Positions 26,930-32,352 of a stretch of DNA of 52,226 nucleotides are shown piece by piece. Below the pieces are notes generated by a model. That model was given only the letters and a program-made list of their open reading frames with translations, had not been told where the DNA came from and ran no database searches. The stretch is from Syntrophomonadaceae bacterium. GTDB taxonomy: Bacteria > Bacillota > Syntrophomonadia > Syntrophomonadales > DTU052. The stretch lies in the NCBI GenBank assembly GCA_012728655.1, contig JAAYEQ010000067.1:1-52226 (forward strand), read 5' to 3'. A program made the translations under genes and the position numbers. How positions within the stretch are numbered: the first letter of the stretch is position 1; each line of letters opens with the position of its first letter.

Positions 26930-26951
26930 GGTAAGCCCCCCAAGAAATAAT

Positions 26952-27157
26952 TAACCCCACCGAGTCGTGTATAGCCGGTTGTTTTGAACCTGCGTCTCCA
27001 GCAGGTGGGCGACCTCCTGTCAGCTTTATGACTCCCTGTCAAAGCAGGGCCTGCAAGCCACTGACAGAGACCAGAAGCCCTTCATTTTGGTGTTGGGCCA
27101 AAACGAAACCAGCTTCTCACGAACACAGCAGGGGCTGTTCTTTAGTATCTCTGATCT
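26952..27157 (-). ncRNA. ssrS: Probable 6S RNA (6S-1/BsrA-like)
   Basis: A transcript of about 200 bases is predicted between aspS and tcdA, the locus of 6S-1 RNA (bsrA) in Bacillus. It starts about 7 bases after a near-consensus promoter. The 5' GCCCC and a GTTCGTG stretch can pair with CACGAC and GGGG near the 3' end to close the molecule. Inside are a long hairpin (AGAAGC with GCTTCT, then a 10-bp stem) and a CTGTCAG/CTGACAG hairpin. 6S RNA binds sigma-A RNA polymerase by mimicking open promoters. The call rests on synteny, promoter and size; the branched fold is less rod-like than the textbook form. Ends are approximate. Confidence 0.65.
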
Positions 27158-27224: not shown

Positions 27225-28985
27225 TTACTTAATTATGGTTTTTATGTTAAGTTCTTTAAGCTGTTCCTCTCTTACCGTTGAAGGCGCATGGGTCATGGGA
27301 CAGGAGGCGCTTTGGGTCTTGGGGAACGCGATCACATCCCGGATGGAGTCACGCTTGGCCATCAGCATTATCAGCCGGTCCAGCCCGAAGGCGATACCAC
27401 CGTGCGGAGGAGCCCCGTACTCAAAAGCCTCCAGCATATACCCAAACTTGTCGGCTACCTCTTCTGCGGTCAATCCCAGCAGGGCGAACATCTTATCCTG
27501 CAGCGTTCGGGAATGGATACGAATACTCCCCCCGCCGATCTCGGTCCCGTTCAAAACCAGATCATAGGCTCGGGCCTTGGCCGATTGGGGCGCAGCCTCC
27601 AACTGTTCGGGATCCTGCGGGGAGGTGAAGGGATGATGCACGGCTATATACCGCTTCTCCTCCTCGTCCCATTCCAGCAAGGGGAAGTCGGTAACCCAAA
27701 CAAAGCTTAAGGCATCTTCGTCGATAAGCTGCAATCTCCGGCCGAGCTCAAGCCTGATTCCTCCGAGAACCCGGGCCACCGTATCTTCGAAGTCGGCGCA
27801 GAACAGGAGCAAATCGCCGGGTTTCGCCTCCAGACGGGAGGCAATACCATCCAGCTCTTCAGGGCTGATAAACTTGATGATCGGCGACTTCATGCCTTCG
27901 TCGGTAACCTGTATCCAGGCCAAACCTCTGGCCCCGAGGTCAATTGCCAGCTTAACCAGATCGTCAATCTCCTTGCGCGACATGGATGCACAACCCTGGG
28001 CGTTGATGGCTCTGACCACGCCCCCGCTGTTGATGGCGGTAGCGAAAACCTTGAATTCCGATTCCCGCAGCAGGTCGGTAAGATCCTGAATGACCAGCCC
28101 GAAACGCAGATCGGGTTTATCGGTCCCATAAAACTTCATGGCCTCGTCATAGGTCATCCGGGGGAAGGGAACGGAGATCTGCCGGCCGATACCATCGGCA
28201 AAGGCTCGAGCCAGCATGGACTCCGTCAGTTCCATGATGTCCTCTTCGTCGATAAAGGACATCTCGATATCCAACTGAGTAAACTCGGGCTGGCGGTCGG
28301 CTCTTAAGTCCTCATCCCGGAAACACCTGGCCACCTGGTAGTATTTCTCAATCCCGGCCACCATCAGGATCTGTTTGAATATCTGGGGGGACTGAGGCAA
28401 GGCATAAAACTCCCCAGGATGTATACGGCTGGGGACCAGATAATCCCGAGCTCCCTCCGGTGAGCTTTTCGTCAGAATGGGGGTTTCAATCTCCAGGAAT
28501 CCGCGTTCATCCAGGAAATTGCGCAGCGATTTAATCACCCGGTGGCGCAGCACCATGTTGTTTTTCATCTCCTGGCGCCGGAGATCGAGATACCGGTAGC
28601 GAAGCCGCAGGATTTCATCAACTTGAATGTTATCCTCCAGGTAGAAGGGAGGGGTCTTGGCGGTATTCAACAACTCGAGTTCCGAGGCGTAAACCTCGAT
28701 TTCACCGGTAGGCAGGTTCGGGTTGACGGTGCCTTCGGGCCGCATTCTCACCGTCCCGGCAACGGCAATGACATACTCGTTGCGGATCCTTTCGGCCAAT
28801 TCAAAGGCCGGTCTGCTGATTTCAGGGTTAAACACCACCTGTACCAGTCCCGAGCGATCCCGCAGGTCCACAAAAATCAGTCCTCCATGGTCACGGCGGG
28901 TATTGACCCATCCGGTAAGTACAACCGGATGTCCGGCCATACCGGGGTTGAGCTCCTGAATCGTATGAGTTCTCTTTAATGCCAT
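27225..28985 (-). CDS. aspS: Aspartyl-tRNA synthetase
   Basis: AspRS charges tRNA-Asp. The 586-residue bacterial-type class II enzyme has an anticodon-binding OB-fold ([26 protein letters not shown]), motif 2 [20 protein letters not shown], the inserted GAD domain and motif 3 [13 protein letters not shown]. The ATG follows AAGGAGG. It is 14 bases below hisS and cotranscribed with it, probably under the upstream T-box. Whether it also charges tRNA-Asn cannot be decided here; no asnS is in the window. Confidence 0.97.
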
Positions 28986-28999
28986 TTTTATAATCCTCC

Positions 29000-30271
29000 T
29001 TAAGGTGTGACCAAAATGGACTTAATTCTGTCAATAATCTGGCTCGAGGGGACCTCCTGCTGTTCCTGGCGCCTCATGTCTCGCAGCACATAAGAATCGT
29101 TCCTGATTTCTTCCTCCCCGATAACTACCACCAGGCGCGCTTCACTTTTACCGGCATACTTCATCTGCGCCTTGAGGCTTCTATCCATATAATCCTTGTC
29201 GGCTTTGATCCCCGCCAGGCGGAGCCGATCCAGCAAGAGACAGGCCTGGGTATCATATTCCCGGTCGGCGACGGCCACAAATACCTCCATCGCCGGTGGT
29301 CTGGTGAAGATTCCGGAATCCTGTTTGAGGGCCGCCAGCAGCAGACGTTCCAGTCCGATGGCAAAACCGATGCCGGGGGTAGGCGGTCCGCCGCACTGCT
29401 CAATGAGGCCGTCATACCTCCCGCCGCCGCCAACGGCGGCCTGAGCCCCCAAACCCGGTACCAGCAGTTCGAAAGCGGTATTGGTATAGTAATCGAGCCC
29501 CCGCACCAGCCGGGAATCGATCACATAATCGATTTTATAAACCGCCAGCATGTTCCGGACCTGTTCAAAGTGCTGCCCGCAGCGGTCGCAGAGGTAGCTG
29601 ATGATGGGGGGGATTTCTTTCACCACTTCCCGGCACCGAGGGGTCTTGCAGTCCAGAACCCGCAGCGGGTTCTTATCCATTCTCTGACGGCAGTCATGGC
29701 AGAGCTCGCCGGCCAGGGGGGCCAGGTATTGAAGCATTCGTTCCCGGTACAGGGGCCGGCAGTCGGGACAGCCGACGGTATTCAAATGCAGTTCGGCTTC
29801 CTTCACACCCAGCCTCTGAGCCATACGCACCAGCAGGGCAATCACTTCGGCATCCACATTCGGATCCCGGCTTCCGAACACCTCCAGGCCAAACTGATGA
29901 AACTGGCGATACCTGCCGGCCTGGGGGCGGTCATACCTGAACATGGGACCGATATAGTACCATTTGGTCGGTTGGGCCTGGTTGTAAACCCGGTGCTCAA
30001 TAAACGCCCGGGCACAGGGCGCAGTGCCTTCCGGCCTCAGGGTCAGACTGCGGTCCCCACGATCCATAAAGGTATACATCTCTTTCTGGACGATATCCGT
30101 GGAATCTCCAACCCCGCGTTCAAAAAGCTCGGTGTGTTCGAAGATGGGCAGGCGCACTTCGGAATAGCCGTATAATTCCGCCATCTGTCGCAGGGTGGTC
30201 TCCATGGTTTGCCACCAGGGAGATTCGTCAGGCAGTATATCGTGGGTCCCTCTAGGTCCCGAGATTTCCAT
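29000..30271 (-). CDS. hisS: Histidyl-tRNA synthetase
   Basis: HisRS charges tRNA-His. It starts with the family's PRGTHDILP, motif 2 region [16 protein letters not shown], and the histidine-specific [15 protein letters not shown]. An insertion between residues 160 and 240 carries pairs of cysteines (CPDC, CHDC, CK, CR, CDRC), a conserved feature of the bacterial form that suggests a metal site. Length is 423 residues. The ATG follows CGGAGGAA. It lies between hemZ and aspS. Confidence 0.97.
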
Positions 30272-30325
30272 TTTTATTCCTCCGGTTCACTATGCTGGAT
30301 TTGCCGAAAAACGCTAGATTTAATT

Positions 30326-31765
30326 CTAGGATAAGGCCCTAAGCTTGTCAACTTGGGCTTTTATCAGCTCTTCCACCCTTTTGATGTAGGCCGCCGGGTC
30401 CTTGGGATAGTGTAAAGTGGTCAGCTTCCAGGTGTGCGGGTCCACATATTTGCTGGCCGCACCCCCACCCATTCCGATAATGGTCTGCCGTTCCTCAATA
30501 ACCCGGATGTTGTATATGCTGAAGCACCCGGGAAGGGCGTAGCCGATATTCTCCTGGTTGCCGGTCATGTACTTTTGACGGTAAAGATAGTAGGACAGGT
30601 ATCCGGCGGAGGCCATAATGCTCCCGGTATCGGTGCCGATATCGGCCTCGTTTTGCTCGATAGCCGCCTCCTGCATCTGCCAGACTGAACCTCGTTTCCA
30701 GGCCAGGTGATGAACGGTTATGCTCTCAGGCTTAAGCCGTATTACCTCCTGCAGGCTGTTCTCGAATTCAGCCGCCCCCTCGCCCGGCAACCCGACAATC
30801 AAATCCATATTGATATGCTTGATACCTGCGGAACGGACCAGTTCATATCCCGACCTCACCATCTTGACGGTATGCCGCCTGCCGACCCGGATCAAGGTCT
30901 CATCGTTCATGGTCTGGGGGTTGACACACATGCGGTTTACTCCCCCCGCAGCCAAAAGCTGTAGCACTTCGCCGCTCAGGGTATCAGGACGGCCCGCTTC
31001 CACCGTAAACTCGGTGCCCGATCCCAAATAGTACCGGTTTAAAACATCGAGCAGCTTTTCCCACTGCGTTAGGCTCAAGACCGTCGGCGTACCCCCGCCT
31101 ACATATAGGTTGTCAACCGTAAGGTCCAACTCCTTAAGAGCCTGGCCGATGCGGCTCAGCTCCAGCAGCAGAGCGGAGAAGAACTCATCCAGACCGGGCC
31201 GGTGCTCCAGCGGGTAAGCCGGGAAGGAGCAGTAATGACAGCGGGTGGGGCAATAGGGAATGCCGATGTAGACCCCCACACAGCTTTTGACCTGTTCCGG
31301 GTTAAGCAGATAAGGCCGGTTCCTTAGGGCCACTTCCGTCAGCAGCCCCGCTTTTTGGGGTTCGACCAGGTATTTGTCCCTGAGTTCCTTTTGTATCTCC
31401 TCCTCCTGATAACCGTTATCCAGGTAGCGGTGAACCAGCTTGGTCGGCCTGACCCCGGTAAGAATGCCATAGGGGCTGGGGTTCATGGAGGTGGCTTCCA
31501 TCAGCAAGCGGTATGTGAAAGCACGTACCTCTCTTTTCACCTCTCCGAGCTCATCGGTGAAAATGCGGCTCTGCCCGGTTTTTTTAAGCAGCCCCTGCAG
31601 CTCTCCGGCAATTTCCAGGTACCCCGGACCTTCCTTTACCCGTATATCCACCTTGAGGTCGGTTTTGACCGGCTCGTAAGTCACCCGGCACCGGGGGAAA
31701 AAAAGCCGTATAATTTCATGTATTCCGCCATCGTAACCCCTGCTCACCTGCAGACCAATCAGCAT
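30326..31765 (-). CDS. hemZ: HemZ-type radical SAM protein (coproporphyrinogen dehydrogenase-like)
   Basis: HemZ proteins are HemN-like radical SAM enzymes of the Bacillus/Clostridia. The iron-sulfur motif CPTRCHYCSF (Cys172, 176, 179) is followed by NLYVGGGTPTVLS and MDLIVGLPGE, with an N-terminal domain ending NPSPYGILTGVRPTKLVH. The frame is open to a TTG at 31870, but the ATG at 31765 follows GGTGGTGAG and gives the expected start MLIGLQVSRGYDGGI. About 479 residues. The gene is first in a likely hemZ-hisS-aspS operon below a T-box leader. A role in heme synthesis is assumed from the family. Confidence 0.9.
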   Translation of the reverse strand: MLIGLQVSRGYDGGIHEIIRLFFPRCRVTYEPVKTDLKVDIRVKEGPGYLEIAGELQGLLKKTGQSRIFTDELGEVKREVRAFTYRLLMEATSMNPSPYGILTGVRPTKLVHRYLDNGYQEEEIQKELRDKYLVEPQKAGLLTEVALRNRPYLLNPEQVKSCVGVYIGIPYCPTRCHYCSFPAYPLEHRPGLDEFFSALLLELSRIGQALKELDLTVDNLYVGGGTPTVLSLTQWEKLLDVLNRYYLGSGTEFTVEAGRPDTLSGEVLQLLAAGGVNRMCVNPQTMNDETLIRVGRRHTVKMVRSGYELVRSAGIKHINMDLIVGLPGEGAAEFENSLQEVIRLKPESITVHHLAWKRGSVWQMQEAAIEQNEADIGTDTGSIMASAGYLSYYLYRQKYMTGNQENIGYALPGCFSIYNIRVIEERQTIIGMGGGAASKYVDPHTWKLTTLHYPKDPAAYIKRVEELIKAQVDKLRALS

Positions 31766-31920: not shown

Positions 31921-32024
31921 AAAAACAAAACCCCTCATCCCCAAGGGACGAGAGGTTGGTTTTCCCGCGGTACCACCCTTATTGGTACAATGTACCCCGC
32001 TCTTAAGGGTACGGGATTACCATC
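31921..32024 (-). promoter_or_regulatory. Second T-box antiterminator/terminator module
   Basis: A second perfect T-box word AAGGGTGGTACCGCG (31980-31966) lies 101 bases below the first. It is preceded by a stem III-like hairpin (GTACCC with GGGGTAC) and followed by a terminator stem (AACCTCTC with GAGGGGTT) and T-rich TTTTGTTTTT. There is no room for a stem I, so this unit is a duplicate of only the 3' half of the leader. A message must probably pass both terminators to reach hemZ-hisS-aspS. Confidence 0.85.
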
Positions 32025-32306
32025 AAAAAAGCCTTTCTCCTCAAGGGACGAAAGGCTTGTTCCTTCCGCGGTACCACCCTTGTTGACCAGGGTCCGCTTA
32101 TTCAAGGTACGAGATGGTCGATCCGATACCCCCTTCCTTTTAACGGTGGAAGTTCCGCCCGCACCTACTTGCCATCTTTGATGGTTTCAGCTGGGAGTTC
32201 CAAAGGGAACTTCAGCCCGTTCCTTTTGGAGATGCTTTCAGTCGCGGCATCTCCTCCCTGTAAAAAGTACCCCGAGCCTACTTTCCTTTGTCATCACTTC
32301 TGTTGA
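32025..32306 (-). promoter_or_regulatory. T-box riboswitch leader upstream of hemZ-hisS-aspS
   Basis: This is a full T-box leader that senses uncharged tRNA. The T-box word AAGGGTGGTACCGCG (32081-32067) precedes terminator stem AGCCTTTC/GAAAGGCT and six T (to 32025). Stem I is upstream: CAAAGG pairs with CCTTTG and GGCTCG with CGGGCT. Between them is a specifier loop with AAAGTA on the 5' side and GAAGTTC on the 3' side. In my fold the specifier would be GTT or TTC, not a His or Asp codon, although the downstream genes include hisS and aspS. The T-box identity is firm; the amino acid is not. Confidence 0.92.
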
Positions 32307-32322
32307 TATATAGTTATGCTAA

Positions 32323-32352
32323 ATGATAGCACAAGACCGGTTATCAAGTAAA
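32323..32352 (-). promoter_or_regulatory. Candidate promoter of the T-box operon
   Basis: On the minus strand TTTACT (32352-32347) and TATCAT (32328-32323) are 18 bases apart, with a TG one base before the -10 (extended -10). A second option, TTGTGC-N16-TATATA, lies slightly downstream. Both would start transcription just before stem I. Confidence 0.45.

Follow-up and report, generated by a model that had tools for sequence, protein, structure and literature searches.

A structural class of T-box leaders with duplicated terminator-antiterminator elements was reportedly described by Vitreschak and colleagues in RNA in 2008. Such partially tandem T-boxes are also named in a review, according to which it is unknown how they work (PMC7583486). 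Fully tandem T-boxes are regarded as serial gates that respond to the same ligand, and a sharper response has been proposed for them (PMC12452182, PMC9413887).

The window analysed here is the whole stretch of 52,226 nt from a Syntrophomonadaceae bacterium (contig JAAYEQ010000067.1). It contains, on the minus strand, a leader in which the exact 16-nt T-box word AAGGGTGGTACCGCGG occurs twice (32081-32066 and 31980-31965), 101 nt apart. With up to three mismatches allowed, 0.45 matches to the word are expected in the window, and three were reached in 0 of 100 shuffles. The two units can be aligned over about 60 nt with a score of 57 (shuffles: mean 14, maximum 23).

The Rfam model RF00230 matches positions 32303-32041 of the minus strand over its full length (model positions 1-219) with 104.3 bits, the cut-off being 93, and this match comprises one stem I and unit 1. 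Unit 2 gives 31.2 bits and aligns only with the 3′ part of the model (positions 155-216), and thus has no stem I; a short-stretch search with RF00230 placed it at 37 bits below cut-off. A second stem I ahead of unit 2 was not found, and the 101 nt between the T-box words leave no room for one. The leader therefore combines a single stem I and a single stem II with two antiterminator/terminator units, and mutually exclusive antiterminator and terminator structures, with a U-run, are predicted in both units. A simple consensus terminator scan reports terminator 2 alone because of a bulge in terminator 1. The initial annotation had described two identical T-box words 101 bases apart, each with its own terminator and a stem III-like hairpin, and a stem I in the first unit only. 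The covariance search that it had proposed and the predicted structures bear this out; its coordinates are correct, and the strand, which it had not given, is minus. Features are listed below. A promoter like that of the window leader (TTTACW, 17-18 nt, TATNAT-like) was recognized by eye ahead of three other leaders (L016, L020 and L032).

Features of the doubled T-box leader, the genes behind it and related loci; positions are those of the window unless another locus is named
Feature	Position	Strand	Basis or remark
Leader promoter TTTACT-18-TATCAT, TG before -10	32323..32352	-	9/12 consensus matches
Stem I, sole copy	32197..32303	-	RF00230 full-length alignment
Specifier codon UUC (Phe), register GAA-N-NNN	32207..32209	-	RF00230 alignment; register from own leuS, ileS and pheS T-boxes
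Stem II and stem IIA/B pseudoknot (GCGG...CCGUU; CUUCC...GGAAG)	32133..32198	-	hairpins: RF00230; IIB: covarying CUYYY/RRRAG
Stem III, unit 1, GACC-CU-GGUC	32085..32094	-	RF00230 alignment and sequence
Antiterminator 1; bulge UGGUACC 32076-32070	32042..32082	-	RF00230, folding, unit alignment, covariation in relatives
Terminator 1 and U-run, -15.8 kcal/mol	32025..32058	-	predicted
UCCCGUAYC/T-box complement, A1 columns 15-23 with 64-75	32017-32008 with 31976-31965	-	no compensatory change
Stem III-like hairpin, unit 2, GGUAC-AUU-GUACC	31984..31996	-	sequence
Antiterminator 2; bulge UGGUACC 31975-31969	31942..31981	-	partial RF00230 match, covariation test, exact repeat word
Terminator 2 and U-run, -21.5 kcal/mol	31921..31957	-	predicted; covariation; terminator scan
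hemZ, first gene after leader	30326..31765	-	TIGR03994, 427.7 bits (cut-off 321.4); start codon by eye
Promoter TTGACA-17-TAGAAT just upstream of hisS	30323..30351	-	11/12 consensus matches
hisS	29000..30271	-	TIGR00442
aspS	27225..28985	-	TIGR00459 and NF001750
6S RNA, directly downstream of aspS	26950-27137	-	RF00013, 88.5 bits
Paralogous aroF-pheA leader	L003:1501-1850; own genome C41:14219-14568		first bulge decayed
leuS leader with nested tRNA-Ala	L002:1501-1813, L168:1000-1450; own genome C46:111688-112000		relatives L169-L197, L204-L211, L215-L218

The amino acid to which the leader would respond can be read with the help of T-boxes of the same genome. In the leuS, ileS and pheS leaders the specifier follows GAA by one base (zero in pheS) and is CUC, AUC and UUC, respectively. 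In this register the window leader reads GAA-G-UUC, i.e. Phe, and GAAGUUC is kept in leaders of the order. Both antiterminator bulges are UGGU, for which the pairing partner is an ACCA end. The organism's own tRNA-Phe(GAA) ends in ACCA (A73) and its tRNA-Asp in GCCA (G73), and UUC together with UGGU fits one cellular tRNA, tRNA-Phe(GAA). Neither CAC nor GAC stands in register, nor do the bulges match C73 or G73. Since this is a Phe leader, yet the genes behind it are hemZ, hisS and aspS, leader and operon are mismatched. The Phe specificity of a leader at this place, as read from specifier and bulges, is new here; the initial annotation had mentioned neither the amino acid nor its misfit with the operon.

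One might suppose that the leader senses His and so matches hisS, as a CAC triplet two bases downstream of UUC is present in the relatives' GAAGUUCAC. The window and its genus, however, carry GAAGUUCCC, which lacks CAC (CCC in the window), and CAC is out of the register of the leuS, ileS and pheS leaders. The GAAGUUC leader also stands before aroF-pheA. Finally, the UGGU bulges suit A73, but bacterial tRNA-His has C73 (the own tRNA loci read for the discriminator base included tRNA-Phe and tRNA-Asp but no tRNA-His). The His reading is therefore rejected as highly improbable.

The leuS leader shows a property of its own. In the Leu (CUC) T-box before leuS in this genome, the stem III loop holds an entire gene for tRNA-Ala(GGC), its CCA being encoded (GGCAAA...tRNA...UUUGCC). 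Of 30 leuS loci in the order, 25 have the nested tRNA gene, and the stem III arms on either side of it covary (GACAAAU/AUUUGUC, GACAGAU/AUCUGUC). In 44 of 199 genomes, from across the phylum, a T-box word is immediately preceded by a tRNA 3′ end. Among 15 of these 44 that were examined, 12 have tRNA-Ala(GGC) at that spot according to ARAGORN; nine of the 12 pass RF00230, and nine show LeuS in the locus. In three single-contig genomes the nested gene is the sole match to that tRNA. If the tRNA were cut out, stem I and the antiterminator would end up on separate RNAs, whereas the tRNA could be obtained even from a leader that had been terminated. The literature searched contained no description of a tRNA gene nested in a T-box, and this arrangement is perhaps more interesting than the doubled Phe leader.

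Both units of the doubled leader appear to be maintained by selection. Units 1 and 2 were aligned separately for 33 leaders of the order. In the unit 1 antiterminator five pairs are changed on both sides, and the covariation score exceeds that of all 500 shuffles. The unit 2 terminator likewise exceeds all 500 shuffles, both in score and in cells changed on both sides, and 94.7% of its cells are paired, compared with 43-57% when the sequences are slid. The unit 2 antiterminator shows one covarying pair only, with 19 of 500 shuffles scoring as high, which is because its sequence hardly varies; its A1 often has just three pairs in relatives. No variation of the T-box bulge is seen in unit 2, nor in unit 1 outside the aroF leaders of the window's family and L032. 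Thus both units are kept in leaders of the order and terminator 2 covaries, as expected of a unit kept by selection and not of a recent duplicate.

Ahead of the unit 2 stem III, leaders of the order share the almost unchanging sequence UCCCGUAYC, which is the complement of GGUACCGCGGGA in the T-box. A helix formed by these sequences (UCCCG-UAYC/GGUA...CGGGA), which would hide the T-box bulge, was considered for both units and rejected: 96.6% of cells are paired in unit 2, but there are no two-sided changes, and shuffles do equally well.

The two units differ in their predicted energies, which were computed for single strands and take account of neither tRNA nor the kinetics of co-transcriptional folding. 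The window leader has -17.6 kcal/mol for antiterminator 1 versus -15.8 for terminator 1, and -10.8 for antiterminator 2 versus -21.5 for terminator 2. Over the 33 leaders the mean terminator advantage rises from 4.2 kcal/mol (unit 1) to 10.7 (unit 2), and unit 2 has the larger value in 29; p-values for this asymmetry overstate independence, since the leaders are related. In a wider set, the last unit has the larger terminator advantage in 55 of 77. The modelled asymmetry suggests that gate 1 is nearly balanced and leaky, and that gate 2 is strict and strongly favours termination.

Most genomes of the order have the arrangement dtd-gloB-(doubled Phe T-box)-aroF-pheA-hemZ-hisS-aspS, which by comparison of gene orders is the ancestral one. 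In the window's genus aroF-pheA are absent from this place and are located elsewhere (C41) behind a paralogous doubled leader. Copies of this aroF-pheA leader (L003, L131, L132, L135 and L149) have a decayed first bulge (UGGUAUA and similar) with terminator 1 intact, and this holds for all five of the family's genomes; in L032, unit 1 has decayed independently. In a tree of leaders, the window leader groups with the aroF leaders of the family (100/97), which fits a duplication of the leader when aroF-pheA moved. As aroF-pheA left the spot, the leader was stranded before hemZ, and it could be slowly decaying there. This history of stranding, as reconstructed from gene order and leader sequences, is new here.

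Three other genomes (G020, G035 and G037) also have the leader directly before hemZ, and PheA was not found in them with the window genome's own PheA as query. A single origin of all hemZ-proximal Phe leaders is rejected (p-AU 6e-78, in a set that includes the long-branch row L032). Two genomes of the window's family (G001 and G004) were found to have no such T-box before hemZ.

The hisS promoter is kept in 28 relatives with a spacer of 17 nt (18 in one). It overlaps the last hemZ codons, and part of its conservation may be coding constraint on the end of HemZ. Because a conserved consensus promoter lies ahead of hisS, hisS-aspS need not depend on the leader; the pair was probably freed from it by this promoter of its own and would mainly use it. 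Sequence comparison thus shows the presence of two units, their fit to tRNA-Phe, the conservation of the layout, the gene order of the ancestor and the sequence of the hisS promoter.

Similar leaders are found outside the order. An exact-pattern scan of 84,980 genomes, for two T-box words with an antiterminator 3′ half between them, gave 90 stretches. About 86 look real, a count that includes a few stretches in odd phyla, taken as a group, and terminators follow the units in nearly all. L057, L092, L108 and probably L042 look like chance matches, being repetitive or terminator-less. Doubled leaders occur in Clostridia (with many Syntrophomonadaceae), Bacilli and Negativicutes, as well as in Synergistota and Chloroflexota records, and thus the layout recurs in several classes. 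The T-box words are spaced 68-116 nt apart, which is too short for a second stem I. The survey counts are lower bounds, as the scan misses decayed words and also words set further apart, such as those of G037 (206 nt) and G034 (228 nt). The initial annotation had proposed one sensing arm facing two terminators in series, and the conservation of both units in 33 leaders of the order and the recurrence of the layout in about 86 leaders of other genomes lend weight to this proposal.

In about nine leaders a single stem I is followed by three or four near-identical units of about 88 nt (L100:421-700, L114 on the minus strand, L123, L044, L070, L077, L079, L099 and L109). Most of them are from Lysinibacillus, Paenibacillus and Priestia, with a Phe specifier and a position before an NSS-type transporter. 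Lysinibacillus xylanilyticus has four near-identical 89-nt units in such a leader, the transporter having been named by eye. In L100 the terminator has been lost from the last unit.

It is likely that the window leader is a transcriptional tRNA-Phe T-box with one stem I and two serial units, which once controlled aroF-pheA and now gates hemZ. With charged tRNA-Phe, RNA polymerase would stop at terminator 1 or terminator 2. Uncharged tRNA-Phe held by stem I would pair its ACCA end with the UGGU of antiterminator 1 and let the polymerase pass, and the pairing would be repeated at antiterminator 2 before hemZ is reached. After the polymerase has passed terminator 1, the acceptor end of the same tRNA, still held by stem I, probably leaves bulge 1 and pairs with bulge 2. 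The genes originally controlled would have been aroF-pheA, for Phe biosynthesis, then situated between leader and hemZ; control of hemZ would be the present state. We infer termination and antitermination at both sites, the hand-over of one tRNA and the effect on hemZ. As serial gates multiply their read-through, leak would fall and the response would steepen, and the doubled layout fits a tighter or sharper response.

The manner in which tRNA would serve unit 2 can be looked at in several ways. Stem I supplies most of the tRNA binding, stem III is repeated in each unit and up to four units share one stem I, and these properties favour hand-over of the same tRNA. The stem-I-bound tRNA-Phe might instead stay at gate 1, with a free uncharged tRNA having A73 pairing with bulge 2, such that the leader counts two tRNAs. 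Each unit does have its own bulge and stem III, unit 2 is without a stem I, and A73 is present in several of the organism's own tRNAs. However, an antiterminator alone binds the tRNA end only weakly, and since antiterminator 2 is predicted to be less stable than antiterminator 1 (-10.8 versus -17.6 kcal/mol), it would need more help and not less. In addition, arrays in which three or four units share a stem I would require three to four tRNAs, and the participation of a second tRNA seems quite improbable.

Another view is that only one gate matters, the other unit being a relic of tandem duplication or a plain backup terminator without a tRNA response. The family's paralogous aroF-pheA leader, where the first bulge has decayed and the terminator is kept, speaks for this, and unit 1 of L032 is similar. 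Nevertheless, the window leader has two intact bulges of the same sequence, most leaders of the order retain both units in intact form, and several classes have the layout; a single working gate is thus unlikely here. With hand-over of a single tRNA as the favoured reading, a more specific proposal can be put forward tentatively, as a possibility on the doubtful side: one tRNA might be shown to the leaky gate and then, after unit 1 collapses into the terminator hairpin, to the strict gate. This would amount to repeated proofreading of charging, with stringency set by the number of gates, two to four in nature.

These findings call for caution: the amino acid of a T-box should not be inferred from the gene behind it, nor the function of a gene from the T-box that precedes it. 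How partially tandem T-boxes work is an open question according to the review (PMC7583486), and the window leader offers a small system for tests, in which one sensor is combined with two unequal gates and which has about 86 natural relatives with two to four gates.

Compared with the T-box family as modelled by RF00230, the window leader has stem I with a specifier loop, stem II, stem IIA/B, stem III, an antiterminator with a UGGN bulge and a competing terminator; it differs in that stem I stays single although both stem III and the antiterminator/terminator unit are repeated. The difference from fully tandem T-boxes is that each unit has a complete sensor there, whereas a single stem I is present here. 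It resembles the partially tandem T-boxes in having one sensing domain and more than one antiterminator/terminator, but this Phe leader has parted from its original target genes, and the present analysis describes an asymmetry of the energies and arrays with as many as four units. Since the class is already known, the window leader is a further partially tandem T-box, one with an unusual genomic fate.
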